Part shown: piece by piece, positions 3,092 through 21,747 of the stretch
Layout of the letters: the number at the start of each line of letters is the position of its first letter
Numbering within the stretch: position 1 is the first letter of the stretch
Assembly: GCA_021796015.1 (NCBI GenBank)
Contig: JAJYOT010000003.1
Location: 1-64,000 of the forward strand
DNA: 64,000 bases
Direction of reading: 5' to 3'
DNA from: a bacterium
GTDB taxonomy: Bacteria; Elusimicrobiota; Elusimicrobia; UBA1565; UBA9628
Program-made: the position numbers and the translations under genes
The notes under the pieces: generated by a model
What the model was told of the DNA's origin: nothing
Databases searched by the model: none
Seen by the model: the letters and a program-made list of their open reading frames with translations, nothing else

Positions 3092-3943
3092 CTAGCGGAG
3101 GTCCGATGGGACTAAGTTGGAAATTCTTGTTTCTGCTTCTGCCCTGATGGCCTGCGATCTTGAATGAATGTAATTGTACAACCAAAAAGCTACAGCAACT
3201 AGGCACAATATCTTTAGAATCCTAGTAATAATTTTTTTAAAACGAGGTGGAGAATAAAGCCTCAAGGGGGGCATTAGCATAGTGCTAAATACTCCCCCAA
3301 GTATACCCCAAATTATAGGTCCAATTTTTTTTAGAACAACTTGCCAGACCGAAATTCCAAACAGTGAACGATTGTTGCCTATTTTACCAACTCCTTCGAT
3401 CACGCCAGAAATAACGATATTTGATTTGGGATCTCCCTCATAAATTAATTGAAAGGCAGCGCCATCTCCCTGTTCTAGAATTTTGAATGTTAGTGAAAGC
3501 TCATTAGAAGATGTCTTCTTTAATTTTATGCCTGTTACTAAACGTGACTCCTTTAGAATTCCACTACTTAAAATCCGAGCAGTCTTATCTGTTAGAGAGA
3601 TTTTAATTGGCTCTAAAACTTCTTCCGCTTTAATCGGAAGTTTCCCATCGTTCCAGAAATAAAAACGGGCGGCAGTGAGATCACTCTTGATCTTGATTTC
3701 CTGATTTGAGGAGGATCGATAATAAACAGAAAGAGCGTTTGTTTTTATTTTTTTGGAACTTAATATCTCTGCGCGGATAGGTTCAACAATAAAGATAGGA
3801 TTTCTTTCTGCGAGTCCCTGCTGATACCAGTAGTATCCAAATAATAATCCTAATATCGCGAGGCTAATACTTAAAATATTAGCCCAATTTTGCTTAATCG
3901 AATTAATCACTTGATTTATATTATATGTATTGGCCAGTAACAA
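3092..3943 (-). CDS. Hypothetical membrane protein, three predicted transmembrane segments
   Basis: A 283-residue protein that I do not recognise. It has one hydrophobic segment at about residues 23-42, a soluble middle of about 150 residues rich in beta-type sequence, and two hydrophobic segments near 205-225 and 240-262. The likely topology places the middle domain on one side of the inner membrane. The gene is clearly richer in A+T than the restriction genes on its left and uses many ATA/AAT/TTA codons, a sign of separate acquisition. It stands alone between the type III system and a dispersed repeat. No catalytic motif is visible. Confidence 0.7.
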   Translation of the reverse strand: MLLANTYNINQVINSIKQNWANILSISLAILGLLFGYYWYQQGLAERNPIFIVEPIRAEILSSKKIKTNALSVYYRSSSNQEIKIKSDLTAARFYFWNDGKLPIKAEEVLEPIKISLTDKTARILSSGILKESRLVTGIKLKKTSSNELSLTFKILEQGDGAAFQLIYEGDPKSNIVISGVIEGVGKIGNNRSLFGISVWQVVLKKIGPIIWGILGGVFSTMLMPPLRLYSPPRFKKIITRILKILCLVAVAFWLYNYIHSRSQAIRAEAETRISNLVPSDLR

Positions 3944-3992
3944 AGCGACCGACGCGCCGCCAATCTCAGTTAAAAAGGAAATCGGTATAAAT

Positions 3993-4120
3993 TCCAGGAG
4001 TAGCGTGCGTAATTAAAGTAGCGTGGTGTTTCCTCGCGGGCGGCCTCTGATTTTTTAGTTTCCCACCATCGTGATGGAAATACGGCAAATCGAGGGCGCC
4101 GCACTTAATTCTTCTGCTTG
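3993..4120. repeat. Dispersed ~130 bp repeat, left copy flanking the kinase cassette
   Basis: This block matches 6957-7087 in the same orientation, roughly 85 percent by eye, with a few small gaps. The best-conserved core is CGCGGGCGGCCTCTGATTTT followed by TTAGTTTCCC, and the copies end together at TTAATTCTTCTGCTTG. The two copies bracket three genes. Short reading frames across it share a similar peptide in both copies but look like by-products of the repeat. The rest of 3944-4278 shows no supportable gene; a GGATTCCGGCTTTCGCC motif lies near 4180. Confidence 0.8.
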
Positions 4121-4278: not shown

Positions 4279-5181
4279 ATGATGATATTTAGGGTTCCCG
4301 AATCCCGTTCCGTCTCAATGGCATTTCCCGAACTTCGGGATATCGTTAAGATTCAACATGGCGGCTTTAAGGCTGTCTACTCAGTCATTGTGGAAGACAA
4401 GAAGGAAGCTCTCAAACTGGTATTTATTCCGCCGGTTTCCGATATCCGCAACGAGGAAGACCTTCCGCGCCAGAAAGAGATCAAAGGACGCATTCGCCGA
4501 GAAATTAATCTCCTCGCAAAACTAAAACGGCCTGAGATCGTAAAACTTGGGGCTCTTGCGCCAAAGGAAATTCAGATTGACGGACAGGACTTTATTGCTT
4601 ACTCGGAAGAATTTCTTGAAGGGAAAAATCTATGGAATATTCTTCGGTCTGGCGGCACGAAACCGGACGAGAACGAGTTGCGGTCGCTGTTTACCTCCTT
4701 GCTCAACGCAATTAAAGAGCTGTGGGAGCATAAGACTGTCCACAGAGATATTAAACCTCACAACATAATAAAACTGGCCGATCCGGATCGGCCATTCGTT
4801 CTGCTTGATTTCGGAATCGCCTTCGTCATTGGAGAAACAGCCCTGACCGACGCCGGATTCCCAAGAACCAACCGCTACATGGCCCCCGAGATGATTCAGC
4901 CGAATTTTCGCGACAGCTTGGACTATCGAAGCGATCTCTATACGACGGCGTTGACCATTTATGAGTATGGGGCTCAGCGTCATCCGATTGCTGGAAATCC
5001 GGAAGACCCGATGCTTACGATCAGCCGTGCGATCAGGGAAATTCCCTCGCCATTAAAAGATCATCGGCCAGACTTATCATCTGAATTTTGTGATACGATT
5101 GATCAGTTGTTAAAGAAAAGACCCTCTCTGCGGCCCGCGAACTTAGAGACGCTTCTGGCCAAAGCCGGACTCTCATCATGA
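4279..5181 (+). CDS. Hanks-type Ser/Thr protein kinase
   Basis: Cytosolic eukaryotic-like protein kinase of 300 residues with no membrane segment and no sensor domain. All key elements are present: Gly-loop-like QHGGFKAVY (about 26-34), ATP-anchoring Lys46 in EALKLVF, a probable helix-C Glu75, catalytic HRDIKPHN (155-162), metal-binding DFG (177-179) and APE (202-204). The activation segment is short. ATG at 4279 is the longest start; an ATG at 4318 (MAFPEL) would still keep the whole kinase fold, and neither has a clear ribosome site. The stop overlaps the next start (ATGA), so the kinase and the 401-residue protein are coupled and probably act together. Target unknown. Confidence 0.92.
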   Translation: MMIFRVPESRSVSMAFPELRDIVKIQHGGFKAVYSVIVEDKKEALKLVFIPPVSDIRNEEDLPRQKEIKGRIRREINLLAKLKRPEIVKLGALAPKEIQIDGQDFIAYSEEFLEGKNLWNILRSGGTKPDENELRSLFTSLLNAIKELWEHKTVHRDIKPHNIIKLADPDRPFVLLDFGIAFVIGETALTDAGFPRTNRYMAPEMIQPNFRDSLDYRSDLYTTALTIYEYGAQRHPIAGNPEDPMLTISRAIREIPSPLKDHRPDLSSEFCDTIDQLLKKRPSLRPANLETLLAKAGLSS

Positions 5182-6383
5182 AATTATTCGCGCAACACGG
5201 AGCTCAAACGGGCCAAAAAATTGAAAGCGGTATTAAGCAGAACCTGCTTGATGGCGTTATTTATAGCCCGAAAGATATTGCGATGACCAAGCTCGGGGAA
5301 GAGTTAAAGAATCTCAATAAAAGCCACCCTCAGTTGGAGAGGCTCCTTGATCCGCAATTCTACGCTTGCTTCGCGGCCGCCAACGCAGAGGCAAGATTGG
5401 GATTTCTTGAGGATGAATACGCGGCTTATTTCGGCCCTAAATCACGAAGAGAGTTAGAGCGCGAAATGGCGGTCCGCGATATTCTTAAACGCTCCCTTCA
5501 GTTTCAGAAGAACCTAGATGTCAGCGCTTTTATCGCGCCGAACATCCTTATCCCTCGCTCGCTAAACTCTATTGAATCAGTTATCGCTAAAAATTTTATT
5601 CGGAGCGCTGCGGCGGAGCATGCGGAACTCAAAGACCCGCGCCGCTTGCTGGTTACTCTCGCCATATCGAGGGACGCTCTTATTGATAAACAGGAATTGG
5701 CCGAGTTTTTAAACGAGATTACCGTTCTTGAAAATCCTCCCGCTGGATTTTACTTGCTTGTGGCGGCCAACTCTTCCGAAGTCCGGGGCGAAATTTGCAA
5801 CGCCGAAACGCTGTCGGCCTGGATGCTCGTAAACCATACGCTTAAAATCAATGGATTTGAGATTATCAATGGTTTTTCGGATGTATTCTCTCCACTCCTG
5901 GGCGCTGCGGGAGCGGATGCGGGCTGTACTGGATGGTTCTCCAACCTCCGCTTGTTTTCTCTTGGGCGGTTTGGGCCATCAAGCGGAGGGCGCCTCCCGA
6001 TTCCTCGCTATCTCAGCAAAAGATTGCTTAACAGGATAACCTTCTCGGAACTGGATGCCATTCGAAATCGCTTTCCAGCTGTCCTCAATGGACTGGAAAC
6101 CGATAGTCTTTATAAAACCGACGGTTCCGAGCCTCAGCGAAATCAGGAAGTATTCCAATCATGGGAAACGATCCGCGCGTTGAATAAAGAAATAGTGAAA
6201 TCCAGCGTTCGAGACAGCCTTCTCTCTTGGAATAAGGCTTTGGATGAGGCCGAGAAGACTTATACCGAAATCAGACGCGCAAACTATTCCCTTGATACAA
6301 AGTCAGGCGATTCGCACCTGGAGCCGATTCGTGAAGCCGTGAATCTATTTGCGCGGGCCGCGGAGATCAAACTTTCGGCGTAG
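5178..6383 (+). CDS. Unknown 401-residue partner of the kinase, possible TIM-barrel-like fold
   Basis: I do not recognise the family. The protein has no membrane segment or signal peptide. Its alternating pattern, with strands ending in small or polar residues such as LLDGVIYSPKD (about 24-34), LLDPQFYACF, GFYLLVAANSSE and IINGF, followed by helices, suggests an alpha/beta barrel, which is only an inference. A Gly/Ser-rich stretch around residues 255-275 is followed by RYLSKRLLNRIT. The last 80 residues are helical and charged. It overlaps the kinase stop by four bases, so it is a likely substrate or effector of that kinase. Its 3' end overlaps the convergent nuclease-like gene by 39 bases. 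Confidence 0.75.
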   Translation: MKLFAQHGAQTGQKIESGIKQNLLDGVIYSPKDIAMTKLGEELKNLNKSHPQLERLLDPQFYACFAAANAEARLGFLEDEYAAYFGPKSRRELEREMAVRDILKRSLQFQKNLDVSAFIAPNILIPRSLNSIESVIAKNFIRSAAAEHAELKDPRRLLVTLAISRDALIDKQELAEFLNEITVLENPPAGFYLLVAANSSEVRGEICNAETLSAWMLVNHTLKINGFEIINGFSDVFSPLLGAAGADAGCTGWFSNLRLFSLGRFGPSSGGRLPIPRYLSKRLLNRITFSELDAIRNRFPAVLNGLETDSLYKTDGSEPQRNQEVFQSWETIRALNKEIVKSSVRDSLLSWNKALDEAEKTYTEIRRANYSLDTKSGDSHLEPIREAVNLFARAAEIKLSA

Positions 6384-6899
6384 AACCTCAAGCGCGCGTA
6401 AGTGCGCAGAGGGGTTTTTGGGGCGCCTGGGTCTCGGAGTAAAAATCTTGGAAATTTTATCCATGTCCTTATGAAAAATCCAAAGGCCAATGCCAAGGTC
6501 CTTAAATAATGGTAAAGCCGGTTTGGCGGCATCCCCCGCTTTCTTTGGCAACACAATGATCGTTCTATCCGAAAAATAAGTGTAGCGGTAGGCTTGGCGA
6601 AGGGCACGGCGCCAATCACTCAGTTTCATCTCAAAAGCCGTAATAGTGTCAGGCAACTGACGACTATGAATAGCGTTCCCCTTACCGTTACGCGTACGAT
6701 CTTGGGCCCAGACAAAATCCGCAATACCGTAGCCAGGCATGATGAACTCATGCCCTCCAATGCCGCGGGTTTCCGCCAAAGAAAGAAAAGCCCGCTGAAA
6801 CGCCCTAGAGAAATGAGTCTCGCCGCTTCGTCTTGAGGAAATGCCTGGAAGATTGCGCTGCGGATGACGAACACAGAAAATCTTTATTTGCGGTGTCAT
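6345..6899 (-). CDS. PD-(D/E)XK nuclease-like protein
   Basis: A 184-residue protein with a candidate restriction-type nuclease core. Counting from the ATG at 6897-6899, Asp61 sits in GIADFVW. It is followed after a gap by the E-x-K signature FEMKLSDW (Glu90, Lys92) and then RRALRQAYRY, in which the Gln is typical of the helix after the ExK strand. A strand IIVLP follows. A GTG three bases upstream is possible, but the ATG is preferred. A perfect TATAAT lies 11 bases upstream of the ATG, with no ribosome site between. The gene faces the kinase pair and overlaps it by 39 bases. Substrate unknown; the fold call rests on motif order only. Confidence 0.68.
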   Translation of the reverse strand: MTPQIKIFCVRHPQRNLPGISSRRSGETHFSRAFQRAFLSLAETRGIGGHEFIMPGYGIADFVWAQDRTRNGKGNAIHSRQLPDTITAFEMKLSDWRRALRQAYRYTYFSDRTIIVLPKKAGDAAKPALPLFKDLGIGLWIFHKDMDKISKIFTPRPRRPKNPSAHLRALEVLRRKFDLRGPRK

Positions 6900-6910
6900 C
6901 ACTGGTAGTC

Positions 6911-6916: not shown

Positions 6917-6956
6917 CGTACTTTCGGAATGCCCCTGCAAATTTTTTTCGAGAAAC

Positions 6957-7087
6957 TCCAGGAACAGCATGCGCAATTCAAGTAGTGGGATATTCCCTCG
7001 CGGGCGGCCTCTGATTTTTTAGTTTCCCCCTCCCATCATGATAGAAACACGGCAAATCGGGGGCGCCGCGCTTAATTCTTCTGCTTG
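6957..7087. repeat. Dispersed ~130 bp repeat, right copy flanking the kinase cassette
   Basis: Right-hand partner of 3993-4120, same orientation. It keeps the conserved core and the TTAATTCTTCTGCTTG end. It joins directly to the sigma-factor remnant at about 7090, so one edge of the repeat is sharply defined here. Whether it is a mobile unit or an ordinary intergenic family member cannot be told from two copies. Confidence 0.8.
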
Positions 7088-7089
7088 TG

Positions 7090-7330
7090 GGAACGCCGTT
7101 TTTAAAATGTGCAGTTTTGGCCGTTTGAAAGTATCCAGAAATGGCCGTTATGATGGTCAGATACCAGGCTGAAAACGAACGCAAGGGGTCGTATTGATTC
7201 CAACTCCTCAGAACCCGAAAGTTCGCCTCCTGGACCAAGTCCCGCGCCTCATCTAAACTTTTAGTCAGATTGCAGGCGAACGCCAAAGGCTCCACAAAAG
7301 GCCGAGTTCAACCGCCAAGTGGCCGCGCAT
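7090..7330 (-). pseudogene. ECF-type sigma factor remnant (region 2 only)
   Basis: The minus-strand translation contains FACNLTKSLDEARDLVQEA followed by FRVLRSWNQYDPLRSFSAW. This is the usual region 2 pattern of extracytoplasmic-function sigma factors (NLT..xEEAEDLVQE.F....SW..YDP..PF.AW). Region 4, the DNA-binding part, is missing, because the frame runs into the dispersed repeat at 7087. No proper start is seen upstream. The piece is therefore a broken gene, probably truncated by whatever event brought in the repeat or cassette. Confidence 0.65.
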
Positions 7331-7391: not shown

Positions 7392-7952
7392 ATGGCGATG
7401 AGAGTTATGCGGGGCATCAAGCCGCAGGATGTCTTGGTTCTTCTTAAGATCATGCTTTGGGAGAAAAAGCCCTGGCGGCATATGGATTTGGCCGAGGAGC
7501 TTGGGCTTTCACAAGCCGAGGTGAGTTTCGCCCTGGAGCGCTGCCGCCGCGCTGGGCTATTGGACTCATCCAAGAAGAAAATACTGCGTTTCCCTATTCT
7601 CGATTTTCTGGTTTACGGCTTGAGGTATGTCTATCCCGCGCAACCGGGACCGCTCTGCCGCGGCATGCCCACGGCCCATTCGGCGCCGCCGCTCTCTCAA
7701 ATGATCGTCTCGGACGAGCATGACCAATATGTCTGGCCATGGGATGAGGGAACGGTGCGTGGACAGGCCATTGAGCCTTTGTATGAGTCCGTTCCTTTCG
7801 CGGCGAAGAGAGACCCTAAACTCTACGAGTTCTTGGCCATGGTGGATGCTCTGCGTGTTGGCCGCGCCCGTGAGCGCGCCTTGGCGCTTCAAGAGATTAA
7901 GCGCCGATTTACTGGCAGCAAACGGCATAGTAATAATAATGAAAAACCTTGA
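7392..7952 (+). CDS. Winged-helix DNA-binding protein, putative antitoxin/regulator
   Basis: A 186-residue protein with a MarR-like winged helix near the N-terminus: MDLAEELGLSQAEVSFALER (about 31-50) is a clean helix-turn-helix with the recognition helix at SQAEVSFALERC. The C-terminal part (about 90-186) has no domain I can name. It is the first gene of a pair, overlapping the nucleotidyltransferase by 14 bases, and sits behind a promoter that overlaps a palindrome. This is the arrangement of an autoregulated toxin-antitoxin-like operon. An alternative start six bases downstream (ATG at 7398) is possible. The role as antitoxin is inferred from context only. Confidence 0.75.
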   Translation: MAMRVMRGIKPQDVLVLLKIMLWEKKPWRHMDLAEELGLSQAEVSFALERCRRAGLLDSSKKKILRFPILDFLVYGLRYVYPAQPGPLCRGMPTAHSAPPLSQMIVSDEHDQYVWPWDEGTVRGQAIEPLYESVPFAAKRDPKLYEFLAMVDALRVGRARERALALQEIKRRFTGSKRHSNNNEKP

Positions 7953-8628
7953 AATGCTGGCCCTCGTGGCCAAGGGCCTGGGTCCTCTCAAAGAGAAAAT
8001 CGTTTTCGTGGGTGGCGCGACGATCGAACTTTACATTGAGGATGCCGCCACGCCTACGGTCAGGGCAACCAACGATGTGGACTGCGTGGTGCAAATACTG
8101 ACTCGCTCCGATTATTATGAACTTGAAGAAAATCTTCGCAAACTCAACTTTAAGCATCCGATGGGGAAGAACTCGCCCGTCTGCCGCTGGGATTACCACG
8201 GAATTCCGGTGGATGTCATGCCAACCGAGGGCAAAATATTAAATTTCACCAATCGCTGGTATCCCGAGGGCTACAAGCGCGCGGAGAGAATTAAACTCGC
8301 CGACGGCCAGGAGATTTCCATATTTTCGTTGCCGTATCTCATAGCCTCCAAGATTGAAGCGTTTGATGATCGTGGTAAAGGCGATTTCATGGGCAGCGCT
8401 GATATGGAGGATTTGATTGCCGTGCTGGATGGAAGTTTCGATGCCAGTGATAAAATCCAGGCAGCTCCCCATGAGGTTCGCGACTATCTTAAAGAAAAGT
8501 TTAACGATTTTCTTAGCAACCGCGATTTCCTTGACGCGTTGATAGGCCACCTTCAATCGCCGCAAGGCACGTCCGGCCGAGTAGAGCGTATTCGCGCGCT
8601 TTTAGAGAAACTATCGGAATCTCTGTAG
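7939..8628 (+). CDS. AbiEii-like nucleotidyltransferase
   Basis: A 229-residue protein of the DNA polymerase beta-type nucleotidyltransferase superfamily. The signature is FVGGATIELY (about 23-32) followed by the metal-binding pair TNDVD (Asp46 and Asp48). A third acidic residue is likely in IPVDVMP (about 95). AbiEii-type toxins transfer nucleotides to RNA such as tRNA acceptor ends; this protein could do so, but the target is unknown. The ATG at 7939 lies inside the end of the winged-helix gene, with GGCATAGTAATA before it. The pair is repeated in principle at 16609-18274 with different sequences. It is the last gene before the left att-like junction. Confidence 0.8.
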   Translation: MKNLEMLALVAKGLGPLKEKIVFVGGATIELYIEDAATPTVRATNDVDCVVQILTRSDYYELEENLRKLNFKHPMGKNSPVCRWDYHGIPVDVMPTEGKILNFTNRWYPEGYKRAERIKLADGQEISIFSLPYLIASKIEAFDDRGKGDFMGSADMEDLIAVLDGSFDASDKIQAAPHEVRDYLKEKFNDFLSNRDFLDALIGHLQSPQGTSGRVERIRALLEKLSESL

Positions 8629-8749: not shown

Positions 8750-8807
8750 AAGCTGGAACAAGGAAAACAGAGGTGGGTCAAAACCCAGAGAAAAGGCCTT
8801 TTTCTCC

Positions 8808-8846
8808 TTAGGACGGAGTAGCTCTATCCATTGAGCTATCGGGGCT
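8808..8846 (-). repeat. Left 39 bp direct repeat: 5' half of tRNA-Arg(CCU), probable att site
   Basis: On the minus strand this is the acceptor 5' strand GCCCCGA, D-arm GCTCAATGGATAGAGC, anticodon 5' stem and loop GTCCTAA (anticodon CCT). It is identical over 39 bases to 21709-21747. After the loop the copies diverge. Copy 1 keeps four bases of the 3' anticodon stem and a T-arm-like GGGTTTTGACCC, but has no 3' acceptor strand, so it is not a working tRNA. A break in the anticodon loop is a classic tyrosine-integrase crossover place. The 8629-8891 interval contains no gene. Confidence 0.78.
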
Positions 8847-8891: not shown

Positions 8892-9629
8892 TCAATCTTC
8901 AAGTATCGATACAATTTCGGCTCCACAACGTCGCAGCCAGTCGCGCCGCTTCTCATAGTCGGGCAAAAGCGACTTGACGACGCGCCAAAATCGGGGAGAA
9001 TGATCGTGCGTTTTCAGATGGCACAACTCGTGAACGACGACGTATTCCAGAACCGATATCGGCATCATTGAAAGCCGCCAATTAAAGCGAATGTCGCCGG
9101 ACTTGGAACAGCTGGCCCAGCGCTTGGATTGATCGCCGATTTTAAGCCGTTGGGGTTTTACGGCCAAGGCCTTCGCATATTTATGGACGGCGGCTTTCGC
9201 GGATTTTTCCGTGAGCTCGAAATACCATTCGCGCAAAGCCCGCCAAGCGGCGTCTTTAAGCGCCGGGCCGGTTTGACCGTCAACCCAAATCTCAAGCCCG
9301 CGGCCTTGGCGACGGCAATAAGGAGTTTTAAGGCCGGGTTCGCGCTTGAGCTTGAGCCTGAAATTACGCCCCAAAACTGGAAACGTCTCGCCGCTCTTTA
9401 TTTCTTTAACAGGGTTCTTCAGGGTCAAGTTCCGAAAATAATCTTGGCGTTCCCAAATCCACTTCGCGCGGCGCGACACGAAGAGACGCAAATCTTCCAA
9501 AGACATCGCGCGCGGAGAGAGCATCTCCACCCGTCCGTCCGGATAAATTTTAAGCGCAGCGGTCTTTTTTCTCGGCGTGCGGCGCACGGCGTAACGCAAC
9601 TGACGGCCTTGATGAAGGATGGTCGGCAT
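8892..9629 (-). CDS. YgjP/SprT-like zinc metallopeptidase (DUF45, M48-type)
   Basis: Cytosolic metallopeptidase-like protein, 245 residues. The zinc site is VVHELCHLKTHDHSPRFW near residues 205-222, with HELCH as the HExxH motif and a downstream His as probable ligand. The N-terminal half carries the family pattern RxTPRKKTAALKIYPDGRVE (about 17-36). This family commonly follows hsdR in type I restriction operons, and here the gene begins 2 bases after hsdR ends. Its role in restriction is unproven; turnover of restriction subunits is a plausible guess. It is the last gene of the ten-gene operon. Confidence 0.88.
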   Translation of the reverse strand: MPTILHQGRQLRYAVRRTPRKKTAALKIYPDGRVEMLSPRAMSLEDLRLFVSRRAKWIWERQDYFRNLTLKNPVKEIKSGETFPVLGRNFRLKLKREPGLKTPYCRRQGRGLEIWVDGQTGPALKDAAWRALREWYFELTEKSAKAAVHKYAKALAVKPQRLKIGDQSKRWASCSKSGDIRFNWRLSMMPISVLEYVVVHELCHLKTHDHSPRFWRVVKSLLPDYEKRRDWLRRCGAEIVSILED

Positions 9630-9631
9630 AG

Positions 9632-12600
9632 TTACCTCGACATCCCCCGCTGGGCCAATTCCATCATCTCCCGCACCAAAGCCGGGAGGGCGTCCTCATC
9701 GCAGCCCTTGGCGCGCAAAAGCCGCTTAATCTCTCGGCGCATTTCCTTTTGGATGTCCTCGCGTTCGGTCCATTCGGCGACGGCGCGATCCTCGATAATT
9801 TCAATAATCCGCTTGGCCAAGGCCGCCCGCTCTTCTTTAGACTTAAGCGGGATTTGCCGGGCATGTTCGCCCAATAAGCCGAAAAAGGCGAATTCCTTGC
9901 CGCCGTTCAAACCATATTTTTTGGCTTCCGCGTCTTTTTGGGACTCGGCCTCCTTGATTTTCATTAAAGACAAGAGATATTGGGCCTCATCCTGCCGCGT
10001 GCGCTTTTGATCGGCCATCAGTTGTTTAAGTTGATCTTGAAGCGGGCGGTAAAACGCGGGGTCTTCCTCCACGCGGGAGTTCAAGGTGTCGCTCAGAGCG
10101 TAGGTCAGGTGCGCGGCTTTCGCCTTGTCGCTTCCCTTGGCGTTGAGCTGCTCGGAAAAATTGGGAGCGCTGATGGTCAGGGGCGCGAGGAGTTGCTCGA
10201 TTCCTTCCGCGGCGATATGGGCGTGAATCAGGGCCTCTATTTTGGCGCTCAAATTGGCGGAACTCAGCCGCCCATCTCGGTAAAGATTTTTGGCGCCTTC
10301 ACGAATAGAACCCAAGAACTTAAAGTCCTTTAAGAACGGATCGACGCGCAAATCCGGCATCAGAAAATCCATGCTTTTCGCGAACGCGCGGTAGGCTTTG
10401 TCGAACTCGCCGCGAAGGCCCTCGTCTTTCAAGGCTTCGACGCAATTTTGCAAAACATCCCGCGATTCCCCCGCAAGCGGAATTTTGGAGAAGAACTGAA
10501 GGCAGGTTTTTCGATGCTCCGCCAAGGCCTTGAGTTCCCGCTCGACGTCGTCGGTTCTAAACAAGCCCTCCAAGTCCTCCGCGTTGAATTTTTCAAGAGC
10601 GTTGGCCAACTCTCTGCCGAGACCCACGTAATCCACGATGAGGCCGAAATTTTTTCGCGGGTAGATGCGGTTGGTGCGGGCGACCGCCTGTAAGAGCGTG
10701 TGTTCCCTAAGGCGTTTGTCCAAATACATGGCTTGAAGGATGGGAGAGTCAAAGCCGGTCAGGAGCTTGTCGCAGACGATGAGATACTTTAAGGAGCTTT
10801 TTGGATTATTAAAACGTTCCCGGACGGCTTCTTCTTCCGACTCGCTGAGGTTATAGCGCTCGGCCCATTCCTCGCCGCGCTCGACGGTCATCACGACCTC
10901 GGAAGCTTGAGGATCCATGAGCCGGTCCAAGGCCGTTTTATAGAGATGAGCGGCGCGTCTTGTTTCCGCGACGACCATGGCCTTAAAGCCGTCGGGTTTG
11001 ACCGCTTCGTTATAGTGTTGGGCGATATCCAGAGCAATGCGCTCGATGCGCGTGGGCGCCTCGCAGAAAATAGCGGGCGTGGCGTATTGTCTCTTGAGTT
11101 GGGCGAGTTCCTTTTTATTTTTGTCCGGAAACATCCCGGCTAATAGGGAATCCAAGGACGCCCCCACGATTTGAAGCTCGGCTAACCGGCTCATGTATTT
11201 AATGGGAACGACCGCGTGGTCCTCCTCGGCTTGATGGATGTCGTATTTGTGGAGATATTTTTCATTCTCGGGGCTAAAGTGCAGATAGGTGTTGCGATCT
11301 TTCTTGTCCAAGGGCGTGCCGGTAAAGGCGAAAAACATGGCGTTTGGAAGCGCCTTTCTCAAATTCAGGGCCAAATTGCCGTACTGCGTGCGGTGCGCTT
11401 CATCGGTCAGCACAATCACGTTACTTGCGGTGGAAAGGGGCTTGTCCAAGGGCGTCCTGAACTTTTGCACCGTGGTCAAGATGACGCGCCCCACGCTTTC
11501 GGAAAGCATTTGATAGAGTTCTTTTGAGCTTTCCGCGCGGATGGGATTGGGAAAGCCGCAATTTTGGAAGGTGCCGGAGATTTGCTTGTCCAAATCGCGG
11601 CGATCGGTGACTATTAGAAAATAGGGGTTTTTGAGTTTTTCCTCTTCCCTCCTGAGTTTTAAGGCGGCGAAAAGCATGGTCAAGGATTTTCCCGATCCCT
11701 GCCAATGCCAGATGATTCCCTTTTTCTCGGGTTCCTCAAGAACCCGCCGGCAAATTTTTTGCACCGCCGAAAACTGCTGGTAGCGGCAAATTTTTTTCTT
11801 GATTTTGCCTTCATCCGCGTCGAAGACGATGAAGTTTTGAATGATGTCGATTAAGTTTTTCTTGTTGAGAAGGGCCGCGATGAGAACGTCCTGCGCCGCG
11901 GGGGCCGAGGGCAGATCGCTTTTTTCAATCACCCCCTCTTTAATCATTGTCAGGACGGAGGGGTGTTGGGCCAGGTTGGGCAATTTCTCGCCGGGCTTTT
12001 CCTTCCATTCCTGAAACGCCTCTAAATCCCCTCCGACGGCCCCGTATTTGGCCCCGAACAAATTGACGCCGATGAGAATTTGGTTGAGTCGAAAAAGGGC
12101 CGGGATTTCCCTTTGATAGCGCATAAGCTGGTCGATGGCGTCTGCGACCCCCGTTTCCCGGGCGACCGGGCTCTTACATTCGATGACGACTAAGGGAATT
12201 CCGTTGATGAAAATGACGATGTCGGGCCGATCCGGGAGTTTCGGGCCCTTGACCCAAAATTGATTGACCGCCAAAAAATCATTTTTGTCGGGATTCTCGA
12301 AATTAATATAGCGAATCGTCAGACCTCGCCGTCCGCCTTTTTCCTCTTGATCGAGGCTGATGCCGCTCACAAGAGCGGCGTGCCCGGATTTGTTTTCGTC
12401 AATCAGCCCCGAACCCTGGATAGCGGTCAAGCGGCGCACGGCCTTGTCAATCGTCGATTCCGTCGCCTCGGGATTCAATTCCAAGAGCTTCTTCCGAAGC
12501 CGCTCGATCAAAATCACTTCCCGCCTGGAGGTTCGCTCGCTGTTCTCGTTTTCCTGCGGGTCCAGCGCCGCGCCAGGAACGAACTCGTATCCCATGCGGA

Positions 12601-21660: not shown

Positions 21661-21708
21661 CGAATTAATCAAGGCCGGACAAAAAACCGCGAAACCGGGC
21701 TTTTCCCA

Positions 21709-21747
21709 TTAGGACGGAGTAGCTCTATCCATTGAGCTATCGGGGCT
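21709..21747 (-). repeat. Right 39 bp direct repeat: 5' half of tRNA-Arg(CCU), probable att site
   Basis: Identical to 8808-8846. The sequence stops being tRNA-like right after the anticodon loop, and no 3' half follows. It lies 14 bases beyond the end of the core gene apt, so it marks the island-chromosome border. The original 3' half of the tRNA is predicted to lie left of the window. The 21520-21760 gap has no gene. Confidence 0.8.

Follow-up and report, generated by a model that had tools for sequence, protein, structure and literature searches.

What does a stand-alone protein kinase do when its gene overlaps that of an unrecognised protein and is accompanied by a gene for a putative nuclease? 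The question is raised by three genes in a 64,000-nucleotide stretch of contig JAJYOT010000003.1 from a bacterium of the Elusimicrobiota (the window), which an initial annotation had described as a candidate defence cassette. The genes encode K, a Hanks-type Ser/Thr protein kinase of 300 aa (4279..5181, plus strand), T, a 401-aa protein (5178..6383, plus strand), and N, a predicted PD-(D/E)XK-fold nuclease of 185 aa when read from a GTG, with an ATG at 6899 (6345..6902, minus strand). K and T share an ATGA-type overlap of four bases between the K stop and the T start (5178..5181, plus strand), where the two genes may be translationally coupled, and the 3' ends of T and N converge over 39 bases covered on both strands (6345..6383); these coordinates agree exactly with those first reported. 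We find that the same three genes recur together in distant genomes, and we propose tentatively, giving it somewhat less than an even chance, that the window trio is one copy of a recurrent cassette protecting its host against phages or other invading DNA.

Recurrence of the kinase, T and nuclease genes

Wherever a search returned a T gene together with DNA, its surroundings were read, and K and N were present beside T at all 11 readable T loci, the window included, 10 of which are independent. At locus L001, in a metagenome-assembled genome (MAG), K (9105-10004), T (10001-11212) and N (11174-11731, opposite strand) have the same 4- and 39-base overlaps as in the window, and the three proteins are 68-73% identical to those of the window. 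The window layout is also found in two related genomes of the phylum of L001, namely at L003/L008, with overlaps of 4 and 29 bases (L003) and 29-37% identity, and at L004/L009, where the K, T and N open reading frames (ORFs) of L009 match the profiles and the DNA is 97.7% identical to L008 over 5,506 bases. At L022, first found through N, the genes form an N-K-T operon, and the order N-K-T recurs at L031 (another genome of the same phylum), L029 (a plasmid of the haloarchaeon Natribaculum breve), L032 (Polaromonas naphthalenivorans plasmid pPNAP03) and L033 (a viral contig). A further viral contig, L034 (5550-11009), carries K-T with N facing them, and its K and T overlap by four bases, as in the window, L001 and L003. 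The Bradyrhizobium plasmid locus L030 (2461-8870), reached via a T search, holds broken remains of K, T and N. The pPNAP03 copy consists of PNAP_RS23575/23580 and an upstream ORF missing from the incomplete gene table of the plasmid database, and was confirmed by profiles made without its own sequences (N 4.8e-20, K 7.5e-35, T 7.8e-11). Two gene orders therefore exist, the N gene running against K and T at the window, L001, L003 and L034, and in the intact loci K and T always run in the same direction with ends that overlap or nearly adjoin. The trio stays together across about 20% identity, in Bacteria, on one archaeal plasmid and in viral contigs.

The association was also visible in how the proteins diverge and in which contigs encode them. 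Over seven loci, the pairwise identities of the three proteins vary together with r of 0.95-0.97, a level reached by at most 10 of 2000 permutations, the close pair of window and L001 weighing heavily in this value. In a protein database, where equal length of the source contigs is an indirect sign that two proteins share one contig, the best 120 T homologues (120 lengths) and the best 120 K homologues (119 distinct lengths) gave 26 K-T coincidences, compared with a mean of 0.97 and a maximum of 6 in 5000 trials with lengths jittered by up to 10%. Coincidences of T with N numbered 5 (null 0.36, maximum 3) and those of K with N 6, one being the window's own contig (null 0.48, maximum 4). In an Elusimicrobia MAG, the locus tags of T (DEB40_07905) and K (DEB40_07910) are consecutive.

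Searches also started from the partners. A profile of N matched six genomes, of which three are the trio genomes G001, G014 and G061, and the match in G165 led to a new divergent trio. G196 (E 6.7e-5) and G340 (E 4.1e-4) were rejected as trio genomes because tblastn found neither K nor T in the DNA taken around the N match, the G340 match being another nuclease-like protein; G098 was missed by the N profile and its trio was found via T. K has matches in 287 plasmid records, mostly unrelated among the matches listed (60 of 287); T adjoins K on the Natribaculum and Polaromonas plasmids, both also reached via T searches, and the flanks of the other K-matching records were examined only via T searches.

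The three proteins

K matches PF00069 (E 1.4e-28) and otherwise only the overlapping kinase model PF07714 above cut-off, in line with the initial description of a complete Hanks kinase with no sensor domain. The catalytic residues K46, E75, H155-R156-D157, N162 and D177, which include the Lys, the HRD Asp and the DFG Asp of Hanks-type kinases, are present, and in the alignment of nine trios, which leaves out the broken L030 and, as a near copy of L003/L008, L004/L009, all of them are kept in every kinase except R156, kept in 8 of 9. By its sequence, K thus looks catalytically intact. Its best matches in PADLOC and NCBIfam are the PD-T4-6 and MADS MAD6 kinases (E about 1e-31), a likeness that reflects a kinase-domain match common to many kinase models: K scores 62.3 bits against the MAD6 cut-off of 460 and 55.3 bits against the cut-off of 990 for PglW of type-2 BREX, and the only sign of MADS partners consists of weak mad2 (5e-8) and mad8 (2e-4) matches of an L008 methylase and an L001 AAA protein. 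PglW and variants of DndF combine a nuclease domain with Ser/Thr/Tyr kinase domains, according to the available parts of PMC12839542 and PMC10853773, and so share with the trio the use of a kinase and a restriction-endonuclease-fold domain in defence; as described there, however, these domains are parts of a single large protein that has other partners, whereas the trio consists of three separate small proteins including T.

T was correctly described as unrecognised, having no match at E≤1 in Pfam, PADLOC, NCBIfam or PHROGs. Structure prediction gave a TIM barrel of the tRNA-guanine transglycosylase (TGT) type over residues ~1-265, the fold of the TGT/DpdA superfamily, followed by a helical C-terminal part that differs from that of TGT/DpdA proteins. 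Structural matches to that superfamily have 8-11% identity, its profile PF01702 does not match T at E≤1, a PDB sequence search with the T or N profiles returned nothing credible, and no match of T at E≤0.001 came from a viral fold library. The CxCxxC zinc motif present in the compared TGTs is absent from window T, and no Cys is found among the invariant columns of the T alignment. When strands were mapped by their order, not by superposition of coordinates, no conserved Asp followed strand 8 of T, where the TGT nucleophile, which we take to be Z. mobilis D280, is expected; the invariant G252 appears to take its place. T as an ordinary TGT or a member of a housekeeping family was rejected, given the lack of Pfam and NCBIfam matches and an hhalign probability of 0.2%, and G001, G014 and G061 each encode a normal TGT in addition to T.

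Conservation in T is concentrated in one part of the barrel. Residues G8, D58, Q60, Y62, P121, Y192, L222 and G252 are kept in all nine aligned trios, so that the motif D58-x-Q60-x-Y62 occurs at 9 of 9 loci, and S30-P31 is kept in 8 of 9. Among the 12 T residues invariant in seven loci (the start Met excluded), 9 lie at the C-terminal strand ends of the predicted barrel, compared with a background of 56 of 264 barrel positions (P 6e-5). In the predicted model, the conserved pocket is located where TGTs have their active site, and TGTs bind their base at the barrel mouth. The conservation of this pocket over distant loci suggests that the ligand is constant, for example a nucleic acid, a nucleotide or a base, and not a phage protein that varies.

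N had only weak matches, none above the curated cut-offs of Pfam, PADLOC, NCBIfam and PHROGs. Its assignment as a PD-(D/E)XK-like nuclease is upheld by a predicted model with the restriction-endonuclease-like fold of that superfamily and by the motif D ... (D/E)-x-K, read in the window as D62...E91-x-K93...Q103. D62, E91 and K93 are invariant in 45 aligned sequences, and E91-x-K93 and Q103 are kept in all nine aligned trio loci. Among the 454 long frames in all the DNA collected, 18 contain the pair of D and E-x-K patterns, the trio copies included. N is therefore likely to be a catalytically intact nuclease, as predicted from these residues. The N proteins of L033 and L034 are longer, with candidate Asp strands SYPDIV and RLIDMA, respectively, and those of L022, L029 and L031 carry an insert of 60-70 aa between the D and E-x-K strands. 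The weak helix-turn-helix (HTH) match of the L022 protein (E 0.017, below its cut-off), together with this insert, hints at DNA as the target.

The structural matches of the N model bear on a tRNA-directed abortive infection, in which T would bind tRNA like TGTs, K would trigger and N would cut RNA; this is the least probable of the explanations considered. In its favour, T shares its fold with enzymes that bind tRNA, and the N model also matches the CRISPR ancillary nucleases Can2/Cdn1 at lower Z (5.8-7.7). Against it, the higher matches, which include the DNA enzymes PaqCI and NucS/EndoMS, and the HTH-like insert at some loci fit DNA better.

Genomic setting and distribution

In the window, the cassette is flanked by direct repeats on the plus strand, 3989..4120 upstream and 6953..7087 downstream, which align in two parts: 3989-4064 with 6953-7028 (86% over 76 nt) and 4066-4120 with 7033-7087 (91% over 55 nt). 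The two copies are the only ones within the window, and repeat cores of 26 and 24 nt each occur exactly twice, where shuffled sequences give an expectation of 0.00; blastn of the repeat against the other loci collected by that point gave no match. The nearby restriction systems noted at the outset are type III Mod/Res genes on the upstream side and type I HsdR, HsdS and HsdM on the downstream side, the latter accompanied by the PADLOC candidate pair PDC-M21A/B, an AbiEii-like protein (below cut-off) and two Fic proteins. The repeats and restriction systems were thus as initially reported, whereas a separate promoter for N, also claimed there, was rejected for want of support: a promoter consensus scan returned 5 promoter-like sites against 4.1 expected, none of them on the minus strand just upstream of N. 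A structured RNA of known family in the cassette was likewise rejected, with 0 Rfam matches at the gathering score.

Several features border the cassette. A truncated-looking sigma-factor gene (6978-7295, minus strand) with a Sigma-70 region 2 fragment (E 2.2e-10) runs into the downstream repeat, and between the type III Mod gene and the cassette lies a gene (3092-3943, minus strand) for a 283-aa protein with no family match above cut-off, whose hydrophobic stretches, judged by eye, suggest a membrane protein. The matches to PDC-M21A and PDC-M21B (E 4.9e-48 and 8.3e-59) fall at 7392-8628, the second protein being weakly AbiEii-like. Further downstream, the type I restriction-modification and Fic genes lie in a 12.9-kb stretch between the two copies of another direct repeat (8771-8846 and 21672-21747; 82% over 76 nt, with identity throughout the last ~39 nt). 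This repeat resembles a tRNA gene end, and the arrangement is one that integration into a tRNA gene would leave; ARAGORN found no tRNA at this repeat.

Elsewhere, L008 is accompanied by two DNA methylases, one with a ParB_N domain, PDC-S26, a WYL regulator and a recombinase; L022 by an Mrr nuclease and HipA; L031 by DpnII and a DNA methylase; and the broken trio of L030 by a SAVED (CBASS-type) protein with two Fic proteins around it and a recombinase. At L034, PHROGs tail and head proteins, endolysin and holin are followed by the trio and then by a DNA methyltransferase, and a position after the phage lysis genes is a usual place for prophage cargo genes. Of the four neighbours scanned at L033, from the viral collection, only one had a PHROG match, to a family of unknown function. 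In total, a defence-island or prophage-cargo position was recorded in 6 of 10 independent contexts, a raw count that carries no background rate. Downstream of the Polaromonas trio, L032:11084-12232 encodes a 382-aa protein without a Pfam match, in which a FEVKTS stretch hints at another PD-(D/E)XK domain.

T homologues number at least 509 at E≤0.01 and are present in several named phyla and on an archaeal plasmid. Among 340 genomes of the phylum of L001, T was found in 3 with the first profile and in 5 with a wider one. Window T gave no tblastn match in plasmids and phages, nor did a second homologue (P0049) in plasmids, and viral contigs searched with window T and with the first T profile gave none. 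In plasmids and viral contigs, T was reached only with more divergent T proteins; the phage collection yielded no T with these either.

Proposed defence mechanism and competing explanations

Profile and structure searches and the listing of neighbours gave the 401-residue protein a predicted TGT-type fold and recurrent kinase-T-nuclease neighbourhoods; it matches no known family, and the three genes do co-occur elsewhere. The notion of a defence cassette is supported by this recurrence at all 11 readable loci, a number of which lie in defence islands or phage DNA. In the mechanism that we propose, the trigger would be a nucleobase or nucleic-acid ligand that arises upon infection and is bound by T. 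This would activate K, co-produced with T, and K would phosphorylate N (or T); N, so licensed, would cut DNA, either the invader's or, in an abortive response, the cell's own. The simplest reading is that K and T would form a sensing and switching pair and N would be the executor, because K and T are co-directional with overlapping or nearly adjoining ends and N can lie on the other strand. T would be a sensor rather than a base-exchanging enzyme because the TGT nucleophile and zinc site are apparently lacking.

Several points weigh against a defensive role or against parts of this mechanism. The action of K on N or T is a presumed step of which there is no direct sign, and all support comes from sequence, predicted structure and gene context. 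No clear defence neighbour was seen among the genes scanned or annotated at L001, L029 and L032, and T is rare in the Pseudomonadota, being found in 0 of 398 genomes with each of two profiles and in 0 of 164 genomes of the class of E. coli. The TGT catalytic residues were mapped onto T by strand order alone, and the hhalign probability of 0.2% refers to four sequences, three TGTs and the phage 9g homologue. Individual sites also deviate: L034 is the exception at the HRD arginine of K, and its T differs at S30-P31 and F260. The Asp of N is not aligned in the nine-locus multiple alignment owing to the insert, and is thus missing from the residues kept in 9 of 9 or 8 of 9 loci; it was found in 7 of 7 loci by a pattern devised after the sequences had been viewed.

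Among the alternatives, restriction-modification by base exchange survives best, although we consider it unlikely. T would here be an active DpdA-like DNA transglycosylase marking host DNA, N would cut unmarked DNA and K would regulate one of them. The TGT fold of T is consistent with this, as is D58 at the end of strand 3, which by strand order appears to hold the position of the TGT catalytic Asp, and the available part of PMC12839542 describes DpdA and other TGT homologues in DNA-modifying defence systems. Against it stand the invariant Gly that, by strand order, appears in place of a conserved Asp after strand 8, and the missing zinc site; moreover, no DpdB/DpdC or preQ0-pathway genes were found among the part of the neighbouring ORFs scanned at the window, L001, L008, L022 and L029-L032, with the ParB_N domain of the L008 methylase as a qualifier. 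The Dpd 7-deazaguanine and BREX-related 'BRC' systems share with the trio a TGT-type protein in an anti-invader cluster, but as far as the same part of that source goes, they contain either DpdB/DpdC or else PglZ with a BrxC-like ATPase and HerA. The window neighbours scanned include none of these, and a kinase-TGT-nuclease trio is not described for them there.

A toxin-antitoxin or island-stabilising module, with N (or K) as a toxin restrained by the other two proteins, is quite unlikely. The compact unit of three overlapping genes and its locations on plasmids, viral contigs and islands would suit such a module; it would however have to account for three conserved enzyme-like proteins that keep their catalytic residues, and for an N gene that lies on the opposite strand at four loci, unlike in a classic toxin-antitoxin operon. 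A regulatory or DNA-repair module unrelated to defence and merely carried on mobile DNA is similarly unlikely: it agrees with the three loci where the genes examined include no defence genes, but not with the patchy occurrence of T in 5 of 340 genomes of one phylum, yet in several named phyla and on an archaeal plasmid, nor with the defence-island and lysis-cassette positions.

Returning to the sensor-kinase-nuclease reading, the trio taken as a whole corresponds to no defence system described in the libraries searched, and no description of it was found among the titles and abstract openings listed from the literature covered, most subscription papers and preprints outside PMC lying beyond that coverage. 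The single folds are already known; what matches no kind of system found is their combination, the way it is wired and the family of T. T differs from TGT/DpdA proteins also in having K and N beside it at every readable locus. A broader claim, which we regard as doubtful, is that the trio represents an undescribed class of immune system common to Bacteria, Archaea and phages. Its sensor for nucleobases or nucleic acids would be a TGT-fold protein that has lost base-exchange chemistry, and this sensor would set off a cascade of protein phosphorylation by which a PD-(D/E)XK nuclease is licensed. To our knowledge, kinase signalling would here rely on a TGT-fold receptor for the first time.

If the cassette is antiviral, both its sensor fold and its wiring, from kinase and TGT-like barrel to nuclease, would be new to prokaryotic immunity. 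T, a widespread family for which Pfam and NCBIfam hold no model, is the constant middle piece of a module found in bacteria, on an archaeal plasmid and in phage-derived DNA. The copies on Polaromonas pPNAP03 and the Natribaculum plasmid come from named strains, which makes the function directly testable.

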